This document shows, piece by piece, positions 10,842 through 29,910 of a DNA stretch of 64,000 nucleotides. The stretch is from Microthyrium microscopicum (lineage: Eukaryota > Ascomycota > Dothideomycetes > Microthyriales > Microthyriaceae): contig MU004231.1 in the NCBI GenBank assembly GCA_010405405.1, forward strand, positions 3,832,884 to 3,896,883, written 5' to 3'. Each line of letters starts with the position of its first letter. The stretch's first letter is position 1. A program made the position numbers and the translations under genes. The notes beneath the pieces were generated by a model. The model did no database searches. It saw nothing but the letters and a program-made list of their open reading frames with translations, and was not told the origin of the DNA.

Positions 10842-13105
10842 TGTATACCTTTCAGCGGCTTCGGCCAGCCGCCCGTAATTCCAAGCTCCTGTATCCCCTC
10901 CTCCAAGCCATTCGCAAGTCCTCTACTCAAGCAGGCGACATCAAGCCGCTCGCATCTTTACTCATAGCAAACCGGGGTGAAATAGCACTGTAAGCTGTCA
11001 AATTATGGGCTAGGGAGACTAGGTCGGCTGGATCTGACTGATATTTGCGCAGACGAGTTGGTCGAACAGCCTCCGAATACGGGATCCGAACCACTACCTT
11101 GTACACGAATCCAGACGCCCTTTCACAACATGCTCTATCTTCCCCCTTTTCAATCAATCTCGGCGACCCAAGTGCATATTTGGATGGAGACAGAATCATT
11201 GCCATTGCAAAAGAGCAAGGATGTGAAGCCATACATCCTGGATATGGCTTTCTCAGCGAAAATCCTGCATTTGCCCGGAAATGCGTCGAGGCTGGACTTG
11301 TATTCGTAGGCCCACCGTGGGAAGCTATTGAAGATATGGGTAGCAAGAGTCGGTCGAAAGAGATCATGACCTATGCTGGTGTACCTTGCATTCCTGGCTA
11401 CCATGGCCACATTCAGGATCCCGAATATCTCAAAGCTGAAGCTGCCAAAATTGGATATCCCGTTCTTTTGAAAGCCGTGAAAGGTGGAGGAGGAAAGGGC
11501 ATGAGAATTGTAAACACACCAGCCGAATTTCACCAGCAACTAGATTCGGCCAAGTCAGAAGCTCGAAATTCTTTTGGTGATGAAATAATGCTCGTTGAAA
11601 AGTACATTACCAAACCGCGACATATCGAAGTCCAAGTTTTTGCCGACAAACATGGTAACTGTGTCGCTCTCGGAGAGCGAGACTGCAGTATTCAAAGACG
11701 CCATCAAAAGATTCTCGAGGAGTCACCAGCACCACATCTGGAAGACAGTATTCGTAAGGATCTATGGGAAAAGGCACGAGCTGCTGCTTCAGCTGTGGGA
11801 TACGAAGGAGCTGGGACTGTCGAGTTCATTTTTGACAACGATACCAATGAGTTCTTCTTTATGGAAATGAACACTAGACTGCAAGTCGAGCATCCAGTCA
11901 CTGAGATGGTCACGGGTCAAGATCTTGTCAGATGGCAGCTGATAGTCGCCGAAGGAGGAAAGCTGCCTTTGACACAGGATCAGATTGAGGAAGAAATAGC
12001 TCAGCGAGGTCATGCAATCGAGGCGAGAATATATGCCGAGAATCCTGCTATGTAAGTTCAACTCCATGCAACTTGAACGACCCTAATAAGTTTGCAGGAA
12101 TTTTATTCCGGATTCAGGAAAGCTGCTCCATCTTCGCTTGCCCAAAGCATCCGATACAGTGCGAATTGACGCTGGATTCGTCGCTGGCGATGAAGTATCT
12201 TCGCATTACGATCCAATGATCGCCAAACTAATAGTTCGAGCACCAACTCGTCAAGCTGCTTTGAAGAAAATGACAGCAGCCCTCGAATCGTACGAAGTTG
12301 GCGGACCCATCACGAATATCGAATTTCTTAAAAAGGTATGCGTAAGCCCAGCATTCGTTGGCGGCGAGGTTGAGACAGGCTACATCAACAAATACCGAGA
12401 GGAACTTTTCGAACAAAAGCCTCCACCAAAAGAAGCTATAGCGCAGGTTGCGGTCGGGCTGCTCCTTCAAGAAAGAAATTCCGTTCAATCATTAGCTCCA
12501 AGTTGGGGACCTTTCTCAGCGCTAGGGGCTCATTTTCAAGAGCGTACTTATAACATTGTAGAACTGCCTGCAGATGTGCAACTGAAAACCGAGCCCATGA
12601 AGGTCACAATAAGAGAAGTATCTCCAGAAACTCTAGTGGTTACCGTCGACACAACAACATTCAATGTCTCAACCTCCGCATCCTCCCCCAAACAGTTCAC
12701 CACTTATTTCCCTCACACTCGGCTCGAAACTACCATGATTCGTGATGAAGATCGCATCACTATCTGGCAGCAGGGCCAACAGTATAAATTCAAACTTGTC
12801 ATGCCCAATTGGGTAGAGAAAGCGCTCGGAGTCAAGGACGAAGCTCACAGTGTTCTCGCACCAATGCCATGCAAAGTGCTACGAGTAGATGTTAAAGCCG
12901 GTGACGAAGTCAAGAAAGACCAAGTAGTCGCAGTGATTGAAAGCATGAAGATGGAGACTGTCATCAGAAGTCCAATTGACGGTATAATCTCGCGAGTAGT
13001 CCATGGGCCAGGTGTAAGTATCATATTCTCTCAAAATCTAGTTTATACTAATTTTTATAGGACATGTGCAAAGCCGGAACTGCCCTTGTCGAGTTCGAAG
13101 AATAA
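10841..13105 (+). CDS. mccA: methylcrotonoyl-CoA carboxylase, biotin-carrying alpha subunit
   Basis: It carries out the ATP-dependent carboxylation of 3-methylcrotonyl-CoA in mitochondrial leucine degradation, together with a beta (carboxyltransferase) subunit. Four exons (10841-10989, 11053-12051, 12098-13013, 13061-13105) give 702 residues, the usual family length. The N-terminus is Arg/Ser-rich and lacks early acidic residues, as expected of a mitochondrial presequence. The biotin carboxylase core begins at SLLIANRGEIALRVGRTA, with the ATP-grasp glycine loop KGGGGKGMR, IHPGYGFLSEN and MEMNTRLQVEHPVTE. The biotinyl domain carries ESMKMET, with the biotin lysine at about residue 667, 35 residues from the end. 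The partner beta subunit and isovaleryl-CoA dehydrogenase, clustered with it in some fungi, are not in this window. The gene converges with the GFA gene 90 bp downstream. Confidence 0.95.
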
Positions 13106-13195
13106 GCGTTATACCAATATAAATTATCCTATCGAGACAGTATTTACCCTCCCGTTCCCAAGTCCTCTTTTTCCAAGTTTCATCGTGCCATACTA

Positions 13196-13633
13196 TCAAT
13201 CATCAGGCTCCCCCTCCCAGCTTTCCACCCCTTCCGGCACCTTAACGACGCCTCTCCTTGTATGTATATGAGCTGCACCCTTCCAGTCCAAACCTTCTAC
13301 CAATCCGCCCTTCACACTCAACGTCGCCTTTTCCTTGCCGTCCCCCGTACGTCCGTGGTGCATTATCCGGTTGGCACAGATTTTGCAGAAGTAGCAGTCC
13401 ATGCTGCCGCCGGAGTCCGTCGGACGCGTCCATTTCCCTAACTTTGCGGAGAGACTAGGTGAGAGGGGTAAGAGGACGGTGGCTGGGAAGATGGCAGAGG
13501 TGCCGTATGCGCTGCCTGATTGCCTTCGACATTGCTGACAGTGGCAGTGGTAGACCTTTAGAGGGCCTGAGGGAAGGGGGACTGATATGGCGGCGCATTG
13601 GCACACTATTCGCGGTGAAATTGGCTCGGTCAT
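13196..13633 (-). CDS. GFA/CENP-V family zinc-binding protein
   Basis: A single-exon protein of 145 residues, the normal length for the glutathione-dependent formaldehyde-activating (GFA, DUF636) fold. The zinc cysteines are visible in order: CQC near residue 11, CHCQQC near residue 30, and CYFCKIC near residue 80, followed by the typical segment on small hydrophobic beta strands. Family members bind zinc; some condense formaldehyde with glutathione, but most fungal paralogues have no known substrate. The gene is convergent with mccA and has no evident functional link to it. Confidence 0.85.
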   Translation of the reverse strand: MTEPISPRIVCQCAAISVPLPSGPLKVYHCHCQQCRRQSGSAYGTSAIFPATVLLPLSPSLSAKLGKWTRPTDSGGSMDCYFCKICANRIMHHGRTGDGKEKATLSVKGGLVEGLDWKGAAHIHTRRGVVKVPEGVESWEGEPDD

Positions 13634-14489: not shown

Positions 14490-16424
14490 ATGAAAGCGAA
14501 TAGATCCGCAGATTCAAATCCGAATTTACAACTGGAGGCGATTGATAATAGTCCTGCCAAGTCATCAGGATACGAAATACAGGAGCGAGACGACTATTTC
14601 CAGCCCATAACCGGCAAAGAACAGAGAGACATCGAAAATGCGATTCTACTTAGAAGAACAACCACAGACACAACAACTCGAGCCCAACTGGCTTTGGCTG
14701 CGATCAGAGGACGAAAGGTTCTAGAACGAACGGAAACAACTCAATCCTTTCTACCTTCAACCGGTCCAGATGTAATCGTGGATTTCGAAGGAGATGATGA
14801 TCCTTATAGACCGCAAAACTGGCCTTTCAAGCAGAAATGCATCACAACACTGCTGTATGGACTGACCACACTCGGCGCGTCTTTTGCAAGCGCTGTGTAC
14901 CAGCCTTGTATACATCAAGTTCGAGACCAATTCAAGATGAATCGTGATATCACCCGTCTCGGCACGGCTCTACTCATGTTCGGCCTGGGAATGGGACCTT
15001 TGCTGTGGGCACCAATCTCGGAATTTCGTGGAAGGAAGGAGACTGTCTTGATACCATACTTTATCGCTGCCATTTTTGCTGTTAGCGGTGGCGCTTCGAA
15101 AGATATAGAGACGTTGTTGATATGTCGGTTTTTCATGGGCTTCTTTGCCAGCGCTCCAATGTGCATTACGGGTGGTGTTCTCAAAGACATCTGGTCGCCC
15201 ACAGATCGTGGAATTGCATTGGTGGGATATGGTCTTTCTGTCCTGACTGGTCCTTTGCTCGGTCCAATAGTTGGTGGCGCCATCGTTTCAAGTCCTTTGG
15301 GTTGGAGATGGACACAATACGTGAGTATTATGACAGCATCTTGGAGAGCTCTCGTGCCAGCATTCACTGATTAACCAATCCTTAGATCACTGGTATATGG
15401 ATGTTCACCATGCTAGGTTTAGATCTTCTATTACTAGATGAATCATTCCCACCTGCTCTTTTGGTTTCCAAGGCTCGTAAGCTTCGCTTTGAGACGGGAA
15501 ATTATGCACTTCATGCCAAACACGAAGAAATGGATTTTAGCCCGAAAGAACTTGCTCACAAATACCTGGTTCGTCCATGGATCATGATGGTCAGTACCCT
15601 CCCTGAGTCCGTCACAATCTACGGACTGTGCTAACAACCCGTTAGTGCACTCCAATTCTATTCTGTGTCGCATTGTATTCCAGCTTTGTGTATGGGATCA
15701 TGTATGCCAACCTTGGCGCGTTCCCAGTAGTATTCCAGGAAGGCCGAGAATGGAACGCTGTTATTGGAGCCTTGCCATTCATCTCTGTACTACTCGGCGT
15801 ACTCATCGCAGCGGGCGCAAATATCGCCAATCAAGGCTATTTCAAGCGTACTCTTATCGCCAACAACAACAAGCCGCTACCAGAAGCACGATTACCTCCT
15901 ATGATGGCTGGATCAGTGGTTTTCGCCGCTGGTCTATTCATTTTCGCCTGGACATCCTCTCCGCATATCCATTGGATGTGGTCACAGCTTGGTGCTGCTT
16001 GTGTCGGCTTTGGGTAAGGACTTCCTCCTGATCATGGCAGGGAAACTCATGCCTATTATACCAAACTGGTTTCATACTGACGGCTTTTAGTTTCTTTACG
16101 ATCATACAACCTGGAATCAACTACATTGTTGACACTTTCACTGAATCCGCTGCCAGTGCTATTGCAGCCCTAACATTTGTGCGAAGTGCAGTTGCAGGAG
16201 GCCTTCCATTGGTCATCGTAGAATTGCTCAGAAATCTAGGAATTCCCAAGGGCATCAGTCTCTTTGGTGGCATAGGTGAGTTCAAACAATGCTTCTAGAT
16301 TTCTCCTCTGCCGTTGTACGGACTGACACTGGTAGCTGTGGCAATGATTCCCATACCTTTCTTCTTCTTTTTCTTCGGTAAGCGAATAAGAGCCAAAGGA
16401 AATTGGTCAAGAGGATCTATCTGA
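14490..16424 (+). CDS. MFS drug/polyamine:H+ antiporter (DHA1-type)
   Basis: Five exons (14490-15320, 15386-15589, 15646-16013, 16091-16275, 16336-16424) with canonical introns give 558 residues. A hydrophilic cytoplasmic N-terminus of about 110 residues ends in DPYRPQNWPFKQK, the typical lead-in to helix 1 in fungal DHA1 transporters. Helices and the conserved loop after TM2 (GMGPLLWAPISEFRGRKE) are clear, as are LLICRFFMGFFASAP and the motif C-like GYGLSVLTGPLLGPIVGG of antiporters. The C-terminal half carries the remaining helices, including FFTIIQPGINYIVDTF. Members export drugs, polyamines or metabolites across the plasma membrane. The substrate cannot be read from the sequence, and no biosynthetic backbone gene is nearby. 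Confidence 0.9.
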
Positions 16425-19411: not shown

Positions 19412-20986
19412 TCAGTTGCCGTTCAGAAATCTGGCAACAGCCTCTGTAAATTGCTCAGGTTGTTCAACCATAGGCAAATGTCCTGCCCCTTCAATCTCTG
19501 CAAGAAGACTGCTTCCATCCCCATACGACGCCGCCATGTCTTTCATTGTTTTGGGTAAAGCACCGTCCGAGGCTCCAACCAAGAACATCCCTCGAACCGT
19601 AGAAGACTTCATGGCTGCCCGGAAGTCGTACTCATATAACGCCTTGACTGCTCCTTTGAAGCCTGCGAGGACATTTGTCTCAACCATGCTCTTCACACGA
19701 GCAATTTCTTGGGCCTTATCAGCATCCGTATAGCTATCTGCTGTGAACCAACGCCTGACTGTTGCTTCTGCCAGGTCCTCACCAACGATTGCAACATCAT
19801 GCTCTCCTCGTTTACCTTCTTTCTCTGCCATCTCAATTCGTTCATTCCAGGCTTTAGGGTTTCCTGGAGGGGCAAGAGCATTTGTATCACAAGAAATGAA
19901 TGCATCCAGACGGTCAGGAGATCGAAGGGCAACATTGAGAGCAGTAGCTCCACCAAGGCTCACTCCAATCACCGCAGCCGCTTTGGGTACTGTAAGTGTA
20001 TCCAAAAGTTCGATGACATCGCTAGCCAGTGTGTCAACAGTCACACCTGTGGGTCCGGTATTCTCGCTACGCCCACGCGCATTGAACCTCAAGATCTGGT
20101 ACTTCTGAGTTCTGGGGTCTTTGAAAAACACTTCAATGAACTTGTCCCAGATCCGCCAATCCACAAGGATCGAGTTTATAAGCACGATCATTGGGGATGA
20201 AGAATCGGGATGTCCCTCCAGGCGATATGGTAGAACGACGCCATCTGAGGTTGTAATGTAGGACTCAATAGCCGTGAAACCCCCGGTCTGTTTGACGAGG
20301 ACCTTTGAAAGGCCATCAGGAAAAGTAAAATCCTTTTGCGGAGAGAGATGGTCTCTTGGGGCAGCACCAAAAGTGTAGAACCTTTGAAACAATCGGTAGT
20401 CGACGTCATTTCGTGGAAGCTTCGAAAGTTGTGATTTTACTTCTTCCACTTGCGTTGGGTCAAAGGCATGCATTTGTACATCTTGAGCTGGTCTTGCGGC
20501 TTCGTACTGCGATGTTTTGAACGTTCGTGTGCTCTTCCAGCCTCTAACGCCTTGGAAATCAAAGCTAGTTGCTTCGTGAGGGCTTTCTGTGGACGAAATG
20601 GCGACCAGAAGCAGTTCATTGTCGGCTTTCAGTGAGGTTGGATGTGTGGCTTGAACGAGATCGTAGAACCTTCTAAGGATGGTAATTTGCTTCATGGTGT
20701 CCCTTTCACGCTGAGTTTGAACTGGTGGAGCTCGAAGCTTGGTATATATCTCCTTTTCTAGATTGGACATGTCTTTTATATCGTAGATGGCCATAAACTC
20801 AGGAATTAACCCGTCAATGGCTTTGTAGCGAAAGCCATTCTCCACGAAAGCCAGTCTGAGGCGGTTTGGGCCGTGTTCGTTGTTATACCAGTCATTGAAA
20901 TCATCCAGCGCAAGTGTTTCTTTCGGTTGCATAGTTACGAAGAGAACGCCATCTGGATTAGCCATTGCGGCGATGTGGCGCTGCAC
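19412..20986 (-). CDS. fusion: tandem EthD-like domains + 3-oxoadipate enol-lactone hydrolase
   Basis: A single exon of 524 residues; translation may instead start at Met8 (MANPDG). Residues 10-112 form an EthD/dimeric alpha-beta-barrel-like domain with the signature FNDWYNNEHGPNRLRL. Residues 123-208 look like a second, degenerate copy: it begins NELLLVAIS and ends LFQRFYTFG, parallel to ILRRFYDLV of copy one. Residues 235-524 are an alpha/beta hydrolase of the 3-oxoadipate enol-lactonase (PcaD/CatD) type, with nucleophile elbow GVSLGG (Ser343), acid Asp474 in VGASDGALP and base His503 in GAGHLPMVEQPEQF. The hydrolase makes 3-oxoadipate from its enol-lactone in the beta-ketoadipate pathway. 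The neighbours, a muconate cyclase and an intradiol dioxygenase, support this role. The N-terminal part may act as muconolactone isomerase (inference). Confidence 0.85.
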   Translation of the reverse strand: MQRHIAAMANPDGVLFVTMQPKETLALDDFNDWYNNEHGPNRLRLAFVENGFRYKAIDGLIPEFMAIYDIKDMSNLEKEIYTKLRAPPVQTQRERDTMKQITILRRFYDLVQATHPTSLKADNELLLVAISSTESPHEATSFDFQGVRGWKSTRTFKTSQYEAARPAQDVQMHAFDPTQVEEVKSQLSKLPRNDVDYRLFQRFYTFGAAPRDHLSPQKDFTFPDGLSKVLVKQTGGFTAIESYITTSDGVVLPYRLEGHPDSSSPMIVLINSILVDWRIWDKFIEVFFKDPRTQKYQILRFNARGRSENTGPTGVTVDTLASDVIELLDTLTVPKAAAVIGVSLGGATALNVALRSPDRLDAFISCDTNALAPPGNPKAWNERIEMAEKEGKRGEHDVAIVGEDLAEATVRRWFTADSYTDADKAQEIARVKSMVETNVLAGFKGAVKALYEYDFRAAMKSSTVRGMFLVGASDGALPKTMKDMAASYGDGSSLLAEIEGAGHLPMVEQPEQFTEAVARFLNGN

Positions 20987-22227
20987 GTCCTGCAGAAAGG
21001 GATGTTGAGAGTGAATATCAGCGATATTATGCAGACAGTTAGGTTGGAAGCGACGATTTTATAGATGCAATCGAAGGCGGCATTAGTGATGTTTAGTGGA
21101 TAGCTATATCGGGGCCCATCCTTGTCGGATTGATTCCTCGGCAGTTGTCGCTCACTCACTCATTCAGCCTCACATTTATTTAAGCTGCTGTACCATCTAG
21201 TGTTTTTCTCTAATTCTGAATGTCGTATCCATCTAGATGCCTGAACTCTGTAGTATATAGATTTGACGCATCTGCTGGAGAATGTAATGAGGGCTTAGCA
21301 CAGGATTAGTCAACCAGCAGAACTTCTATGTACCTCAAATTAGGTATATGCTGTTACCGTATTCTCTACTTCATGCTACTTCCAGTCTCATATGAAAACA
21401 TATCAATGCCTTTCGGTGGCCACGCAGCCTGTTCACTAAACTGACTTGATTGATGCTTGTTAGGCTAGAGATGTGAGTTAGATGTGTAACTCTGCGTTGA
21501 GTATCGACAGTGTGCGGCCTCCATGGTTCAAACATTCATCACATTAAGGGATTTGGCATGAAAAAGCTTTGCACTCGATGGCAAACACATCGCACTGGGT
21601 GGGAAACACCGCACTCGGTAGGAAACATCGCACTCGGTAGGAAACATCGCACTCGGTAGGAAACATCGCACTCGGTGGAAAACATCGCACTCGGTGGGAA
21701 ACATCGCACTCGGTGGGAAATATCGCACTCGATGGGAAATATCGCACTCGATGGGAAATATCGCACTTGATATTATTTTATAAGTTTCTGCTATACCTAT
21801 AAGTTGAACTTGTCGCAACCAGAAACAATGAATACCAGTGTTCCAGTTGTCACAAACATGAGCGGACGACTGCAGCTGCTGTCTTCTGTAAAGTTGGGCC
21901 TTAGAAAGTCCGTTGTCAGTGCACGCGAAACAGGTCTACAGCGCATGACAACTCTAGTGGAGGCTGGTATCTCTTTCTGTGGAACATTTAGTTGATGAAG
22001 TTTTTCATGGTCTTGTATACTTTCTTTCTATGCTTGTGAATGTAACTATTATTTTCAGGTAAACATGCAGGTCAAATGATCAGTTGGGTAAATTCGACCA
22101 TTAACGCGAGTTGGGAAAAGTTTCTATGATCATTATCCCTAAACTCAGAATTTGATCGATTACATTGGGAAACGATGCTTTTAAAAGTGATTTGGAGTGT
22201 CTAGCTTTCTGTGTCTTCTTTTTGTGT
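20987..22227. other. intergenic region holding a 19-bp minisatellite
   Basis: Outside the tandem repeat at 21571-21770 I see no gene. A short plus-strand frame at 21804-21995 has no motif. The left end is the upstream region of the enol-lactonase fusion gene. Confidence 0.5.
21571..21770. repeat. minisatellite, 19-bp unit, about 10 copies
   Basis: The consensus unit is GCACTCGGTGGGAAACATC. About ten full copies run head to tail, with an extra 2 nt in the first unit and a decayed last unit (gcacttgat). Variation between units is concentrated at a few positions (GG/AG/GA at bases 8-11, CATC/TATC at the end). Because 19 is not divisible by three and the unit has no stop on the minus strand in any register, all three minus frames are open through the array. 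Confidence 0.9.
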
Positions 22228-23454
22228 TCAGTCGTACCACACAGCATTCATTCCAAATCCAGGCTCCTTCACGTCACAATGAGCCACTCGAGCTAACCAT
22301 TCACCATCCCATCGATAGATTTCAAGCCAGCCTTGTTCATCATCAGTGAGAGCTAACCATTCATCACTCCAGTCGCAAGGAACAATTGCATTGCTATGAC
22401 CACCGCTTGTAGGCGTTGGACTTAGACACATTTGTCTTTGGATTGATCCATCAGCATTGAGTGCAAAGGCAGATATGTAGCCTGTAACAGCTGAACTATT
22501 GGATCTTGCTGTAGCGAAAAGGTATTTACCACTATGCGATATTGCTACCACATCAGCTCGATACATTTTGGGGTTGCGTTCAAATAGTACTGACAGGTTA
22601 GATTGATCGAGCGTTGTGGTTGGAAATCTTACTCTTAGGTACTAGTGGATATGATTTACCAGTGTATTCAGGCATATGAGTGTCTTTGGAGATCTTGTAG
22701 ACCCCTAGGGTGTTACCAGCTTCCATAAGAGCGTAGAGAAAATCTCCACTTGGATGCATTTCTACCCATCGAGGAGCATCGTGGTGTTTAGGGGCATCTT
22801 CGCTACCAACGAGGGTTAAAAGACCTGTTTCTGGATCTTTTTGATGACACCAGATCTTGTTTGCCCACATGTCTGCTGAATACAAGTACGACTCTGAGGG
22901 ATCGAAAACCATTCCATGGATAGCGGTTTCTGGTGAATATTCGTAGTTCTGGACGCTTTCTTGAAGGCCACCTGATTTATCTACTGAGAAAACATTGCCA
23001 TATCCAGCATAGTCGTAGAAAGGATTTCCATAGACGTTGAAAGGAGGTTTTTGGGCGGCAAGTACAAAGATTGCTCTGGTTTTAGTTGATGCGTCATTTG
23101 CTCGAGCTGAGTATAATCAGGATTTGGAACTTTATATTGCTTTGAAGAACATACCATCCCCTCCCATGGAATGAGATGAATGATGTTTAATGGAAGTTGG
23201 GCTTTGGACAGTAAAGCTATTCCATTTCTTCATTGCAGCTCCATATAATGTTGTTTTTTCATGCTGAGAATGATTAGAATGTTATGCAACACTTGTCGTG
23301 AATAGCTTACATTCAAGGTCATCCATGATATGGGTTCAGCCTCAGGTATTGCTGTACGAGCAATAAGCTTCAAATCGAAAGATTCATCATCAAATTCGAA
23401 GCTAAAAATAGCCCCTGGTGGAGTCCAGGTTCCAACAAACAAGTGATGCTTCAT
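22228..23454 (-). CDS. cis,cis-muconate cyclase, lactonase beta-propeller family
   Basis: Four exons (23311-23454, 23155-23263, 22633-23106, 22228-22589) give 362 residues, all in phase. The N-terminus MKHHLFVGTWTPPGAIFSF is typical of the fungal (Neurospora-type) 3-carboxy-cis,cis-muconate lactonizing enzymes, which are seven-bladed beta-propellers unrelated to the bacterial cycloisomerases. Propeller-like segments include IHGMVFDPSESYLYSADMWA, PRWVEMHPSGDFLYALMEAG and ADVVAISHSGKYLFATARS. The reaction closes (carboxy)muconate to a muconolactone in the beta-ketoadipate pathway. An upstream in-frame ATG at 23496 exists, but the start at MKHHLFVG matches the family. It is transcribed divergently from the ring-cleavage dioxygenase at 24022. 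Whether it prefers muconate or 3-carboxymuconate cannot be read here; the dioxygenase points to muconate. Confidence 0.85.
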
Positions 23455-24021
23455 GGTGGTGATTGATAGATTGTAGAGACAGTTACAGACATCCAATAGT
23501 GAATATTATCCATCGCATATATTCTTACCCGGGCAGAGAGGCAGCATGGATATCTAGCCAGTTAGCTTGCAGGTGGGAGCCAGTAAAAGTCCCGGCCGGA
23601 CTGCCGCGGTCGTTTGATATACTGGCTCAGACCAGGATGATAGTTCGGAAAGCTTCAGAGCTATCGGATACCATCGGCACCTGTTGAGGGGTTGATTCAT
23701 TTCTTCTTGAATGCTATTGATCAATTTTGTGATTGGGGTTTTCTGTGTCGTATCCGAATTGCGCAAGATGGAGGTGTTGGTGGCCAACAGAGCTACCTAT
23801 TAGATCCGACTAGCCGACCTAATTGCCGTCAGTATAAAAATGGTTTACACAACGGCAAATGTCGCCAGTAATCGTGTACGGATATAAACTGCGAGCGCGC
23901 TACTAACTGCAGTTGATTCATCCACAGCCTTCCAAATCAGTTCAATCCGTCTTTGATCTATCTTTTAACCTGTAAACTTCACCTCTTCCAGTTACCAGCA
24001 CAGTAAGCTCGAGTCTACACA
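23455..24021. promoter_or_regulatory. shared divergent promoter of the cyclase and dioxygenase genes
   Basis: These 567 bp separate the starts of two functionally linked, divergently read genes, so both promoters must lie here. A CG-rich patch near 23591-23612 contains CGG-ACTG-CCG and further CGG/CCG triplets, which resemble binding sites of Zn2Cys6 activators. A TATAAAAA lies at 23833-23840. Function is inferred only from position and motif. Confidence 0.5.
23833..23840 (+). promoter_or_regulatory. possible TATA box of the dioxygenase gene
   Basis: TATAAAAA lies 182 nt before the start codon at 24022, a plausible distance if the leader is about 100-150 nt. There is no direct evidence of use. 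Confidence 0.3.
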
Positions 24022-25039
24022 ATGGCAGAACACAGATTTGATCCCAACTTCACCCAAAATGTCATCAATGCCATTGGCCCAAAGGCGACACCACGAACTC
24101 GTGAGGTGTTCACGGCGCTCTTCAAGCATGTTCATGACTTTGCGCGAGAGGTGGAACTTACTATGGACGAGTGGCAACAGGGAATGCAGTTCCTTGATGA
24201 AGTAGGACACATCTACTTTACTTCCAACAAGACAAGACATGAGATGCATCGAATTTCGGACGTCATTGGACTAGAAAGGTGAATGGCAAAGCATCGCATA
24301 ACTTTGAAGTCGAAACTGACGTATAGCAGCCTAGTCGATGAAATCGCGCATACACATGCCTCAGAATCCGGAGCAGCACCAACAAGTAGTTCGATTCTAG
24401 GACCTTTCTGGTCACCAAACGCTCCATTCAGAGAACTTGGTGATAGTGTGATACAAGACTCTCACAAAGGGCAAGTATCTTATCTATATGGAAAAGTTAC
24501 CGACATGGAAACTGGAGAGCCTATAGCCAACGCTATCGTGGATATGTGGCAAGCTTCTTCTAATGGAAAGTACGATTTCCAGGATCCTGATAACCAGAGC
24601 CCAAACAACTTGCGAGGAAAGTTTCGAACCAATGCCGAGGGAAACTATTACTATTATGGACTCAAACCAACCGCCTATTCACTTCCAACAGACGGTAAGC
24701 CAGTGAAACCTTTCTGACATCCAGCATCAATGTCTGACGTACGATATAGGTCCATCATGGCAGATGTTGCAAGCACTCGATCGTCATCCAATGCGTCCCG
24801 CCCATATTCATATGACCGTCTCCGCCGATGGCTATCGCGCAGTAACTACACAAATCTACCCCAAAGACGATCCATGGTTAGAAACAGACACTGTGTTTGC
24901 TGTGAAGGATGATCTTGTCCGAGATTTCGTCGCTCGCGAAGGTGACGCAAAGGCACAAATACAAATGTACATGGACTTTAAGCTTGCACCAGCTCCAACA
25001 AATGGAGTAAACGGTCAGAATGGAGCAAACGGCCACTAG
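24022..25039 (+). CDS. intradiol ring-cleavage dioxygenase (catechol/hydroxyquinol 1,2-type)
   Basis: Three exons (24022-24278, 24330-24694, 24750-25039) give 303 residues. Residues 1-100 match the N-terminal helical dimerisation domain of catechol 1,2-dioxygenases. The catalytic core has [28 protein letters not shown] and [14 protein letters not shown]. The Fe(III) ligands are visible as Tyr167 (NGKYDFQ), Tyr202 (PTAYSLP), His226 and His228 (PAHIHM); their spacing (35, 24, 2) fits the known enzymes. It opens the ring of catechol or hydroxyquinol between the two hydroxyls, giving muconate or maleylacetate. The adjacent cyclase and enol-lactonase are needed only on the muconate route, so catechol is the likelier substrate (inference). 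The C-terminus ends in a low-complexity Asn/Gly tail. Confidence 0.92.
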
Positions 25040-28596: not shown

Positions 28597-29910
28597 TTAT
28601 ACGAAACCGTCAATTTGATCTCGCCTAGAAATCATGGAAGTGACTGGGTGTAATGAATGGTCATCCTTTCCATCGTTGGTCACCGGTTTAGTCAACTCGT
28701 CTCCAAACGGGTGGGTGAAAACAATTTTGTCTTCTACTGGACCAGTCACCGACTGGACAGCGCCATCAGACTTGGATCTTTCAGGTAGATTGACTGTTTC
28801 GTTGTGAGGATCTGACTTGTTTCCGTAGACATTCGTAGACAGACTTGTCTGGCGGTTTATGGACTGTCTTTTCTTCCAGCTGTTTACTCGTAAGAATGAC
28901 AACACTGATGGTCGCTTGCGTTTTTGTGACCCTTCCTCAGACGTTGCTTGATCCTCAGAAGTCCTCGAAGGGATACTCAACTCGCTCTTGCGATGCTGTT
29001 TGCCCATATTTGCCTGAAGCAGGGAGGTTTGTTGGTCTTTGTGTAAAGGATGAAATCTTTCCATTGCTTCTTGATAGCTGTCCTGCCATTGCTTGTTGAG
29101 ATAAGCCAAAGCACCATCAGTAGTGGCTGAAAACTCAGGGTAATCGTCTTGACATGAGTCCTTGATAAGTCGAAGCTTGGAACCGTCGTTAGCGGCTTTG
29201 TTGCGATCAAAAACCGGATGCCATCCCATCGCCTTGATGTCGTACTGAACGGCACGATTGATCCGATCGTTATTATCCATGGCTTCAATCACGTCGTCGA
29301 CACAACCACGGACTTTGTTGATATAGTCCTGAAATTTAACATTGTCCGTGATAATCCAGTGATGGTTCGTTGCGACTTTGGTGTGAGAGCGAACCAGACT
29401 CAAATACTGCTCTCTGAAAGCTTCTAATCTTGTCGAATCAAGCGCTGGCTCCGGACTATTGATAATTTTCTTTGAAGGACTGAGTCCATAGGTATGAGAG
29501 AGAGATTCTTTGTCCAGACTTGAAGGACCATGGGTGATTTGCTTTAGTGCTGTCTCGATCCGAATTCGATTGGTTTCATCGTCAATGCGCGAGTCTCGGA
29601 AATCATCTTCAGCGCAGATGCCAACAAATTGACCCCATGCAAGAAGTCTAGCTTGTTGTATGCCCAGTTTGGTAAGTAATAGCTTTTGAGGTCGATCCCA
29701 CTCTTTTTTGCCTTGGTGAAACGTGCCAAAGGACTCGATGCAATCTCCAAATAGGTGTGCCATCTGAAGAGCATTGTTGCTCTTGTTGTTGGGCGTTTCT
29801 TTCATTGTTAAATAAGAAGGAAGGGGCAAAAGGTTAACGAAAATTTGCAGGGTGGAGACTGGCAAGAAAAAAGCCGTAGTATTAGTACCTGCTACAAGCT
29901 TCCGGTCCAC
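28597..29910 (-). CDS. HeLo-domain protein (prion-inhibition/propagation family)
   Basis: An open frame of 437 residues that looks whole. From about residue 50 (MAHLFGDCIESFGTFHQGKK) to about residue 290 it follows the helical HeLo pattern, with KLLLTKLGIQQARLLAWGQF and a later VIEAMDNNDRINRAVQYDIK. HeLo domains, as in HET-S of Podospora, act in fungal allorecognition cell death, often triggered by an amyloid motif or a partner receptor. The C-terminal 150 residues are Ser/Lys-rich with a basic cluster (KRKRPSVLSFLRVNSWKKR), and I see no clear amyloid repeat. The first 49 residues do not match the family, and a 3' splice signal lies just before MAHLF, so the true first exon may lie further upstream. 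No NLR partner gene is in view. Confidence 0.65.
   Translation of the reverse strand: MDRKLVAGTNTTAFFLPVSTLQIFVNLLPLPSYLTMKETPNNKSNNALQMAHLFGDCIESFGTFHQGKKEWDRPQKLLLTKLGIQQARLLAWGQFVGICAEDDFRDSRIDDETNRIRIETALKQITHGPSSLDKESLSHTYGLSPSKKIINSPEPALDSTRLEAFREQYLSLVRSHTKVATNHHWIITDNVKFQDYINKVRGCVDDVIEAMDNNDRINRAVQYDIKAMGWHPVFDRNKAANDGSKLRLIKDSCQDDYPEFSATTDGALAYLNKQWQDSYQEAMERFHPLHKDQQTSLLQANMGKQHRKSELSIPSRTSEDQATSEEGSQKRKRPSVLSFLRVNSWKKRQSINRQTSLSTNVYGNKSDPHNETVNLPERSKSDGAVQSVTGPVEDKIVFTHPFGDELTKPVTNDGKDDHSLHPVTSMISRRDQIDGFV

Follow-up and report, generated by a model that had tools for sequence, protein, structure and literature searches.

The window, the whole 64,000-nucleotide stretch of DNA that was analysed, holds on its minus strand a single unbroken reading frame at positions 19412 to 20986. 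The first codon of this frame is a GTG at 20986, which is unusual as a fungal start. From the ATG at 20965 the reading enters the first domain at once (MANPDGVLFVTM) and gives a protein of 517 amino acids and 57.6 kDa. An ATG start is expected because the window looks fungal, both in the size and type of its introns (GT-AG, 43–55 nt in the neighbouring genes) and in the Pfam matches found elsewhere in it, which include HeLo, impB/mucB/samB (DNA polymerase eta-like) and syntaxin 6/10/61. The frame that a sequence-only reading of this DNA had proposed is thus real, with its likely start moved to ATG 20965. The intronless coding frame then runs from 19412 to 20965 on the minus strand and probably encodes a ChdA-type 3-carboxymuconolactone decarboxylase/hydrolase. 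Residue numbers follow the 517-residue (ATG) reading unless the 524-residue reading is named.

A 3-carboxymuconate cyclase (CMLE) in four exons lies at 22228 to 23454, also on the minus strand, and aligns end to end with N. crassa 1JOF (531 bits; 225 of 360 positions identical, 62.5%). By position in this alignment, the window CMLE keeps His148, Arg196, Glu212 and Arg274 of 1JOF, which we take to be the proposed active-site residues. For A. niger CmcA, a value of 67% against the N. crassa protein has been reported (PMC10406623). The alignment places the window cyclase in the 3-carboxymuconate (protocatechuate) branch. If its activity is like that of its relatives, its product would be 3-carboxymuconolactone, from which a carboxyl has to be lost en route to 3-oxoadipate. 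The sequence-only reading had set an isomerase step between the cyclase and the hydrolase domain; because the cyclase is of the 3-carboxymuconate type, this step would be a decarboxylation instead. The stretch between the two-module gene and the cyclase carries a 19-bp tandem repeat of 9.5 copies with 94% match (ACATCGCACTCGGTGGGAA, 21587–21767).

The cyclase and an intradiol ring-cleavage dioxygenase on the plus strand (24022 to 25039; 303 amino acids, two introns of 51 and 55 nt) form a divergent pair, 22228–25039, beside the ChdA-like gene. Among solved structures, the dioxygenase is closest to the hydroxyquinol type (191 bits), with the catechol type at 120 bits and the bacterial protocatechuate 3,4-dioxygenase at 35. 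The fungal protocatechuate dioxygenase PrcA is reported to be 33.2% identical to the fungal catechol dioxygenase Acdo1p (PMC9204233), and this distant kinship to the catechol type makes protocatechuate a possible substrate of the window dioxygenase. If it takes protocatechuate, a three-gene cluster would be notable because such genes are described as unclustered in Scedosporium, as reported for A. nidulans (PMC8283699). The dioxygenase, the cyclase and the two-module enzyme together may place a whole aromatic-breakdown branch at one site. A possible uptake partner is an MFS transporter in pieces at 14490 to 16298 on the plus strand, in which 14490–15374 matches MFS_1 and the rest is read from frames alone. 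Two consecutive frames at 11045–13271 carry biotin carboxylase and biotinyl domains and resemble an acyl-CoA carboxylase alpha subunit, and 28597–29910 encodes a protein with a HeLo domain (PF14479, E 4.3e-27), named for prion inhibition and propagation.

The C-terminal half of the two-module protein (residues 245–514; 19424 to 20233, minus strand) is an alpha/beta hydrolase of the 3-oxoadipate enol-lactonase-like kind, by NCBIfam and solved-structure matches. The NCBIfam model for 3-oxoadipate enol-lactonase, TIGR02427, matches residues 252–521 of the 524-residue reading with E 1.7e-45 and 155.4 bits, and the best solved relative is 2XUA, an enol-lactonase (E 1.1e-23). Ser336 (within GVSLGG), Asp467 and His496 are all present and presumably form the catalytic triad. 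The enol-lactonase assignment made for this half by the earlier reading is borne out by these matches. As the score lies below the equivalog cut-off of 255.85 bits, the half is best classed as a divergent enol-lactonase and not as a certified PcaD equivalog. The PcaCD and PcaDC fusion models align to the hydrolase part alone.

The first domain (residues 1–106; 20648 to 20965, minus strand), here copy 1 and the proposed decarboxylase module, is recognised through bacterial relatives and profile comparison as a dimeric alpha/beta-barrel of the DUF4286/EthD-like kind. Neither the N-half nor its parts have a Pfam match up to E 10, and the gathering cut-offs of EthD (PF07110) and DUF4286 (PF14114) are not reached. 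The N-half alone has no match in NCBIfam, and among solved structures it returns three chance-level matches, the best with E 0.35. Scanning bacterial and archaeal genomes gave two relatives of the first part, one from Novosphingobium (L001; 40% identity, query residues 28–71) and one from a Myxococcales genome (L002; 38%, query residues 7–69). A search starting from these relatives found matches in 7 of 196 genomes, and viral contigs held no relatives of the full protein or of alignment A1. When 13 members are aligned, the window protein included, the sole invariant columns are a Trp, a Tyr, a His and an Arg. In the window protein these four columns are occupied by Trp26, Tyr27 and His31 of the DWYNNEH motif (residues 25–31; 20873 to 20893, minus strand) and by Arg46 (20830–20828).

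Further comparisons point the same way. At E ≤0.1 in Pfam, eight of the 13 aligned members touch DUF4286, one touches EthD and one ABM. The family profile finds among solved structures 2FTR (listed as BH0200; presumably an EthD-family structure) as its best match, E 0.022, followed by four weaker, unrelated-looking ones. Profile–profile alignment with hhalign gives a probability of 97.1% between copy 1 and the 12 bacterial members and 86.5% between these members and EthD (11 of 16 fetched EthD loci); EthD set directly against copy 1 reaches just 37.9%. A profile freed of the rows found with the query scores 24.9 bits on the window N-half (highest score among 1000 shuffles: 8.0), in a test that is not fully independent since the rows were gathered via an alignment that includes the window protein. 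A profile of two-part bacterial relatives scores 39.3 bits over residues 4–106, where the highest of 1000 shuffles scores 6.0; the profile holds 16 of the 21 two-part loci tried, as L090, L091, L101, L103 and L104 were missed by the motif rule. One such relative, L048, aligns with copy 1 by tblastn at 29.8% identity across 94 residues. Modelling with AlphaFold2 gave a mean pLDDT of 34.8 for the whole protein as a single sequence, too poor for a fold search, and an all-helical, unusable model of mean pLDDT 46.6 for copy 1 with L001 and L002. The proposal that the DWYNNEH-bearing copy is related to dimeric alpha/beta-barrels is nonetheless confirmed at the level of profiles: judged by its bacterial relatives, the segment from residue 1 to about 106 is a predicted member of this wider superfamily.

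The two-part relatives were found by wider sampling, in 10 of 200 and then in 26 of 398 genomes. They are bacterial proteins of about 225 amino acids in which the same first domain is followed by a second part (L048–L052, L075–L089, L102). Three were scanned with Pfam; the first half of L048 passes the DUF4286 cut-off (26.8 vs 25.8), and the third member scanned has no match. Their gene neighbours offer no functional lead; many of the neighbouring frames picked by an automatic rule resemble antisense frames and were disregarded. A search for the hydrolase domain in 104 loci, most of them spanning about 1.5 kb per side, matched only the CatC locus L020 at E 0.01. A 555-residue frame at L054, considered as a barrel–hydrolase fusion, was taken as a probable frame artefact, as it overlaps a 426-residue frame that resembles a real gene. 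In L074 (3457–8396) a barrel protein lies a few kb from TENA_THI-4/PQQC and Lactamase_B_2 matches that resemble pqqC and pqqB, and in L073 (3637–8499) alpha/beta hydrolase-like and radical-SAM-like frames, labelled by reading the frames, are found near one.

The second part of the N-half (residues 110–218; 20312 to 20638, minus strand) is unrecognisable by sequence. It had been proposed as a degenerate second copy of the barrel, from the pair RRFYDLV and QRFYTFG, which share the three-residue identity RFY. Local alignment of the two copies scores 21, below the shuffle mean of 25.9, and 93% of 2000 shuffles reach at least 21. With the ends left free, the alignment scores 17 where shuffles average 11.1; 13.6% of the shuffles reach at least 17, and only the ends of the copies are paired. 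Copy 2 scores –1.3 bits with the family profile, and the other family profiles are also negative on residues 110–218. The tandem-copy claim therefore lacks sequence support. ABM is another dimeric barrel, and the second half of one two-part bacterial member touches it (E 0.0016, below the cut-off, with no single stretch passing), so a diverged second barrel in the window protein is conceivable and may be counted as possible. Elsewhere in the family, the bacterial proteins L047, L019 and L016 have two W-Y/F-x-x-x-H barrel copies per chain (in L047 each half matches the profile, L019 was read by eye and the first copy of L016 is degenerate), so tandem forms of the domain do exist.

In the sequence-only reading, the N-half acts as a muconolactone isomerase and passes its product to the hydrolase domain. 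CatC, the bacterial isomerase, is of the ferredoxin-like fold class, as such barrels are, and the chemistry would be close, with both steps passing through a dienolate; the two-module layout would also agree with this reading, while lending no support to the isomerase step itself. Against it, the window protein has no Pfam match to CatC (PF02426), and profile comparison puts seven CatC sequences at 0.3% with copy 1 and 1.8% with the second part. The 12 bacterial barrel members reach 0.1% against the same CatC sequences. A separate muconolactone isomerase, AN4061, and a separate enol-lactone hydrolase, AN4531, are listed for Aspergillus (PMC12388069, PMC8283699); deletion of the former is reported to lead to muconolactone and of the latter to enol-lactone (PMC12388069). 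The dark metabolite seen on deletion of AN4531 is called “likely” enol-lactone in another paper (PMC7842363). In the literature searched, no link of EthD with muconolactone isomerase or 3-oxoadipate enol-lactonase was found, a search that synonyms could escape. With a neighbouring cyclase of the 3-carboxymuconate type, an isomerase N-half is very improbable. What survives of the proposed fusion is a barrel module set before an enol-lactonase, and the two-module chain very likely performs two consecutive steps on a lactone; isomerisation as the first of them does not hold.

Nor is the architecture new, as had been supposed. A ChdA-type enzyme was already described in 2023: A. niger ChdA (NRRL3_01409) is reported as a 60.95-kDa protein whose C-half resembles PcaD and whose N-half is uncharacterised, and the purified whole enzyme turns 3-carboxymuconolactone into 3-oxoadipate (PMC10406623). 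The decarboxylase role of its N-half is the authors' proposal, and a term search of the main text returned no assay of the separate halves (PMC10406623). The authors' AlphaFold model shows a “previously uncharacterized structure” for this half, to which the signature IPR003497 (BRO-N) is assigned; the relevant text of the paper makes no mention of an EthD match (PMC10406623). BRO-N has no Pfam match in the window N-half up to E 10. In A. oryzae, cmcA (AO090023000419) and chdA (AO090023000421) are two numbers apart (PMC12335040). In A. niger, prcA is NRRL3_01405, close in number to chdA, and cmcA is the distant NRRL3_02586, so the cmcA–chdA link is not general (PMC10406623). Expression of chdA on quinic acid has also been reported (PMC12610400).

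A ChdA-type protein would be a two-module chain of about 54–61 kDa with a PcaD-like C-half and a genomic link to cmcA; here the chain has the length and mass given above, its C-half matches TIGR02427 and the CMLE is its neighbour. By architecture, size and neighbourhood, the window protein is probably such a 3-carboxymuconolactone decarboxylase/hydrolase, working in two steps with the barrel as decarboxylase; its orthology to ChdA (NRRL3_01409/AN10520) is proposed on the same three grounds and not from an alignment. Sequence comparison shows both modules and the families they belong to, the residues Ser, Asp and His, and the neighbouring CMLE. The ChdA-type reading also draws on the A. oryzae and A. 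niger gene numbers, on the barrel assignment and on the precedent of the EthD-domain proteins MdpH and ClaH, for which cited work is said to show decarboxylase activity (PMC10890192); EthD proteins are labelled “putative decarboxylase” in another report (PMC4591646). Counting against it are the dioxygenase, far nearer to the hydroxyquinol and catechol types than to bacterial protocatechuate dioxygenase, the missing BRO-N match, the AlphaFold reading of the ChdA authors, the unrecognised second part and the poor models.

The enol-lactonase-like C-half would also suit a catechol-branch hydrolase like AN4531, in which case the N-half might have a structural or regulatory role or act on another lactone. 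The genes for AN4531 and for the catechol dioxygenase AN4532 are numbered consecutively (PMC7842363), and the window gene too is near an intradiol dioxygenase of catechol/hydroxyquinol type; a description of the domain layout of AN4531 was not found in the literature. The CMLE, however, sits between the two-module gene and the dioxygenase, and the spacing of cmcA and chdA in A. oryzae speaks for the other branch, which leaves a catechol-branch enzyme unlikely. The barrel might also be catalytically idle, since dimeric barrels can act as oligomerisation folds and the second part of the N-half is unrecognisable; the hydrolase would then work alone on the enol-lactone, and decarboxylation would take place elsewhere or spontaneously. 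This is a still less likely reading, as copy 1 keeps the invariant Trp, Tyr, His and Arg and whole purified ChdA carries 3-carboxymuconolactone through to 3-oxoadipate (PMC10406623).

Under the ChdA-type reading, the neighbouring CMLE would make 3-carboxymuconolactone, the N-half, built on a DUF4286/EthD-like barrel, would decarboxylate it to 3-oxoadipate enol-lactone, and the C-terminal alpha/beta hydrolase would open this to 3-oxoadipate. Trp26, Tyr27, His31 and Arg46 would line the site of the barrel, the putative decarboxylase module, with His31 and Arg46 plausibly holding the substrate carboxylates and handling the proton. Nothing found in print places the decarboxylase half among the DUF4286/EthD-like dimeric alpha/beta barrels; the half looks likely to be a diverged member of this barrel superfamily, which includes the fungal EthD decarboxylases. 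In the literature searched, carboxymuconolactone decarboxylase and EthD or dimeric alpha-beta barrels co-occur only as entries on different lines of a Cryptococcus gattii Pfam table (PMC4556806). The wider statement, that the fungal 3-carboxymuconolactone decarboxylase structure is a DUF4286/EthD-like barrel, kin to the bacterial two-part family and fused to an enol-lactonase, is slightly favoured. The motif and the relatives would give the “previously uncharacterized” half of ChdA a family and named residues. If the assignment is true, fungi built a decarboxylase–lactonase fusion independently of bacterial PcaL, using a decarboxylase fold unrelated to that of PcaL, and the fungal EthD-type polyketide decarboxylases share a superfamily with the decarboxylase half of ChdA. 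Bacteria and fungi would thus have arrived at one two-step fusion by way of different decarboxylase folds. The substrate lactone arises as fungi digest plant aromatic compounds.

Among known systems, the bacterial PcaD and CatD (TIGR02427; 2XUA) are alpha/beta hydrolases with the Ser, Asp and His that the window C-half also has, but their model spans the hydrolase alone and the C-half stays below its equivalog cut-off (155 vs 256 bits). Bacterial PcaL and PcaCD/PcaDC join a decarboxylase and an enol-lactonase in a single chain, as is proposed here. The PcaL-type decarboxylase belongs to the carboxymuconolactone decarboxylase (AhpD-like) family, a domain with no Pfam match in the window protein. 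CatC has no detectable profile similarity to the N-half. DUF4286/EthD barrels and the bacterial two-part proteins (L048, L075 and kin) resemble the window copy in W-Y-x-x-x-H and the following Arg; unlike the window gene, the two-part proteins are not accompanied by any match to a PcaD-like hydrolase in the examined loci. The fungal EthD decarboxylases MdpH and ClaH, likened here by description, tie an EthD domain to decarboxylation, but in xanthone and anthraquinone pathways (PMC10890192). ChdA, likened by its published description and not by alignment, differs in its reported BRO-N signature, which Pfam does not see in the window protein. It shares the layout, with a PcaD-like C-half behind an uncharacterised N-half, and is similar in size (57.6 kDa for the window protein vs 60.95 kDa); its substrate is the product of a cyclase of the type found beside the window gene.
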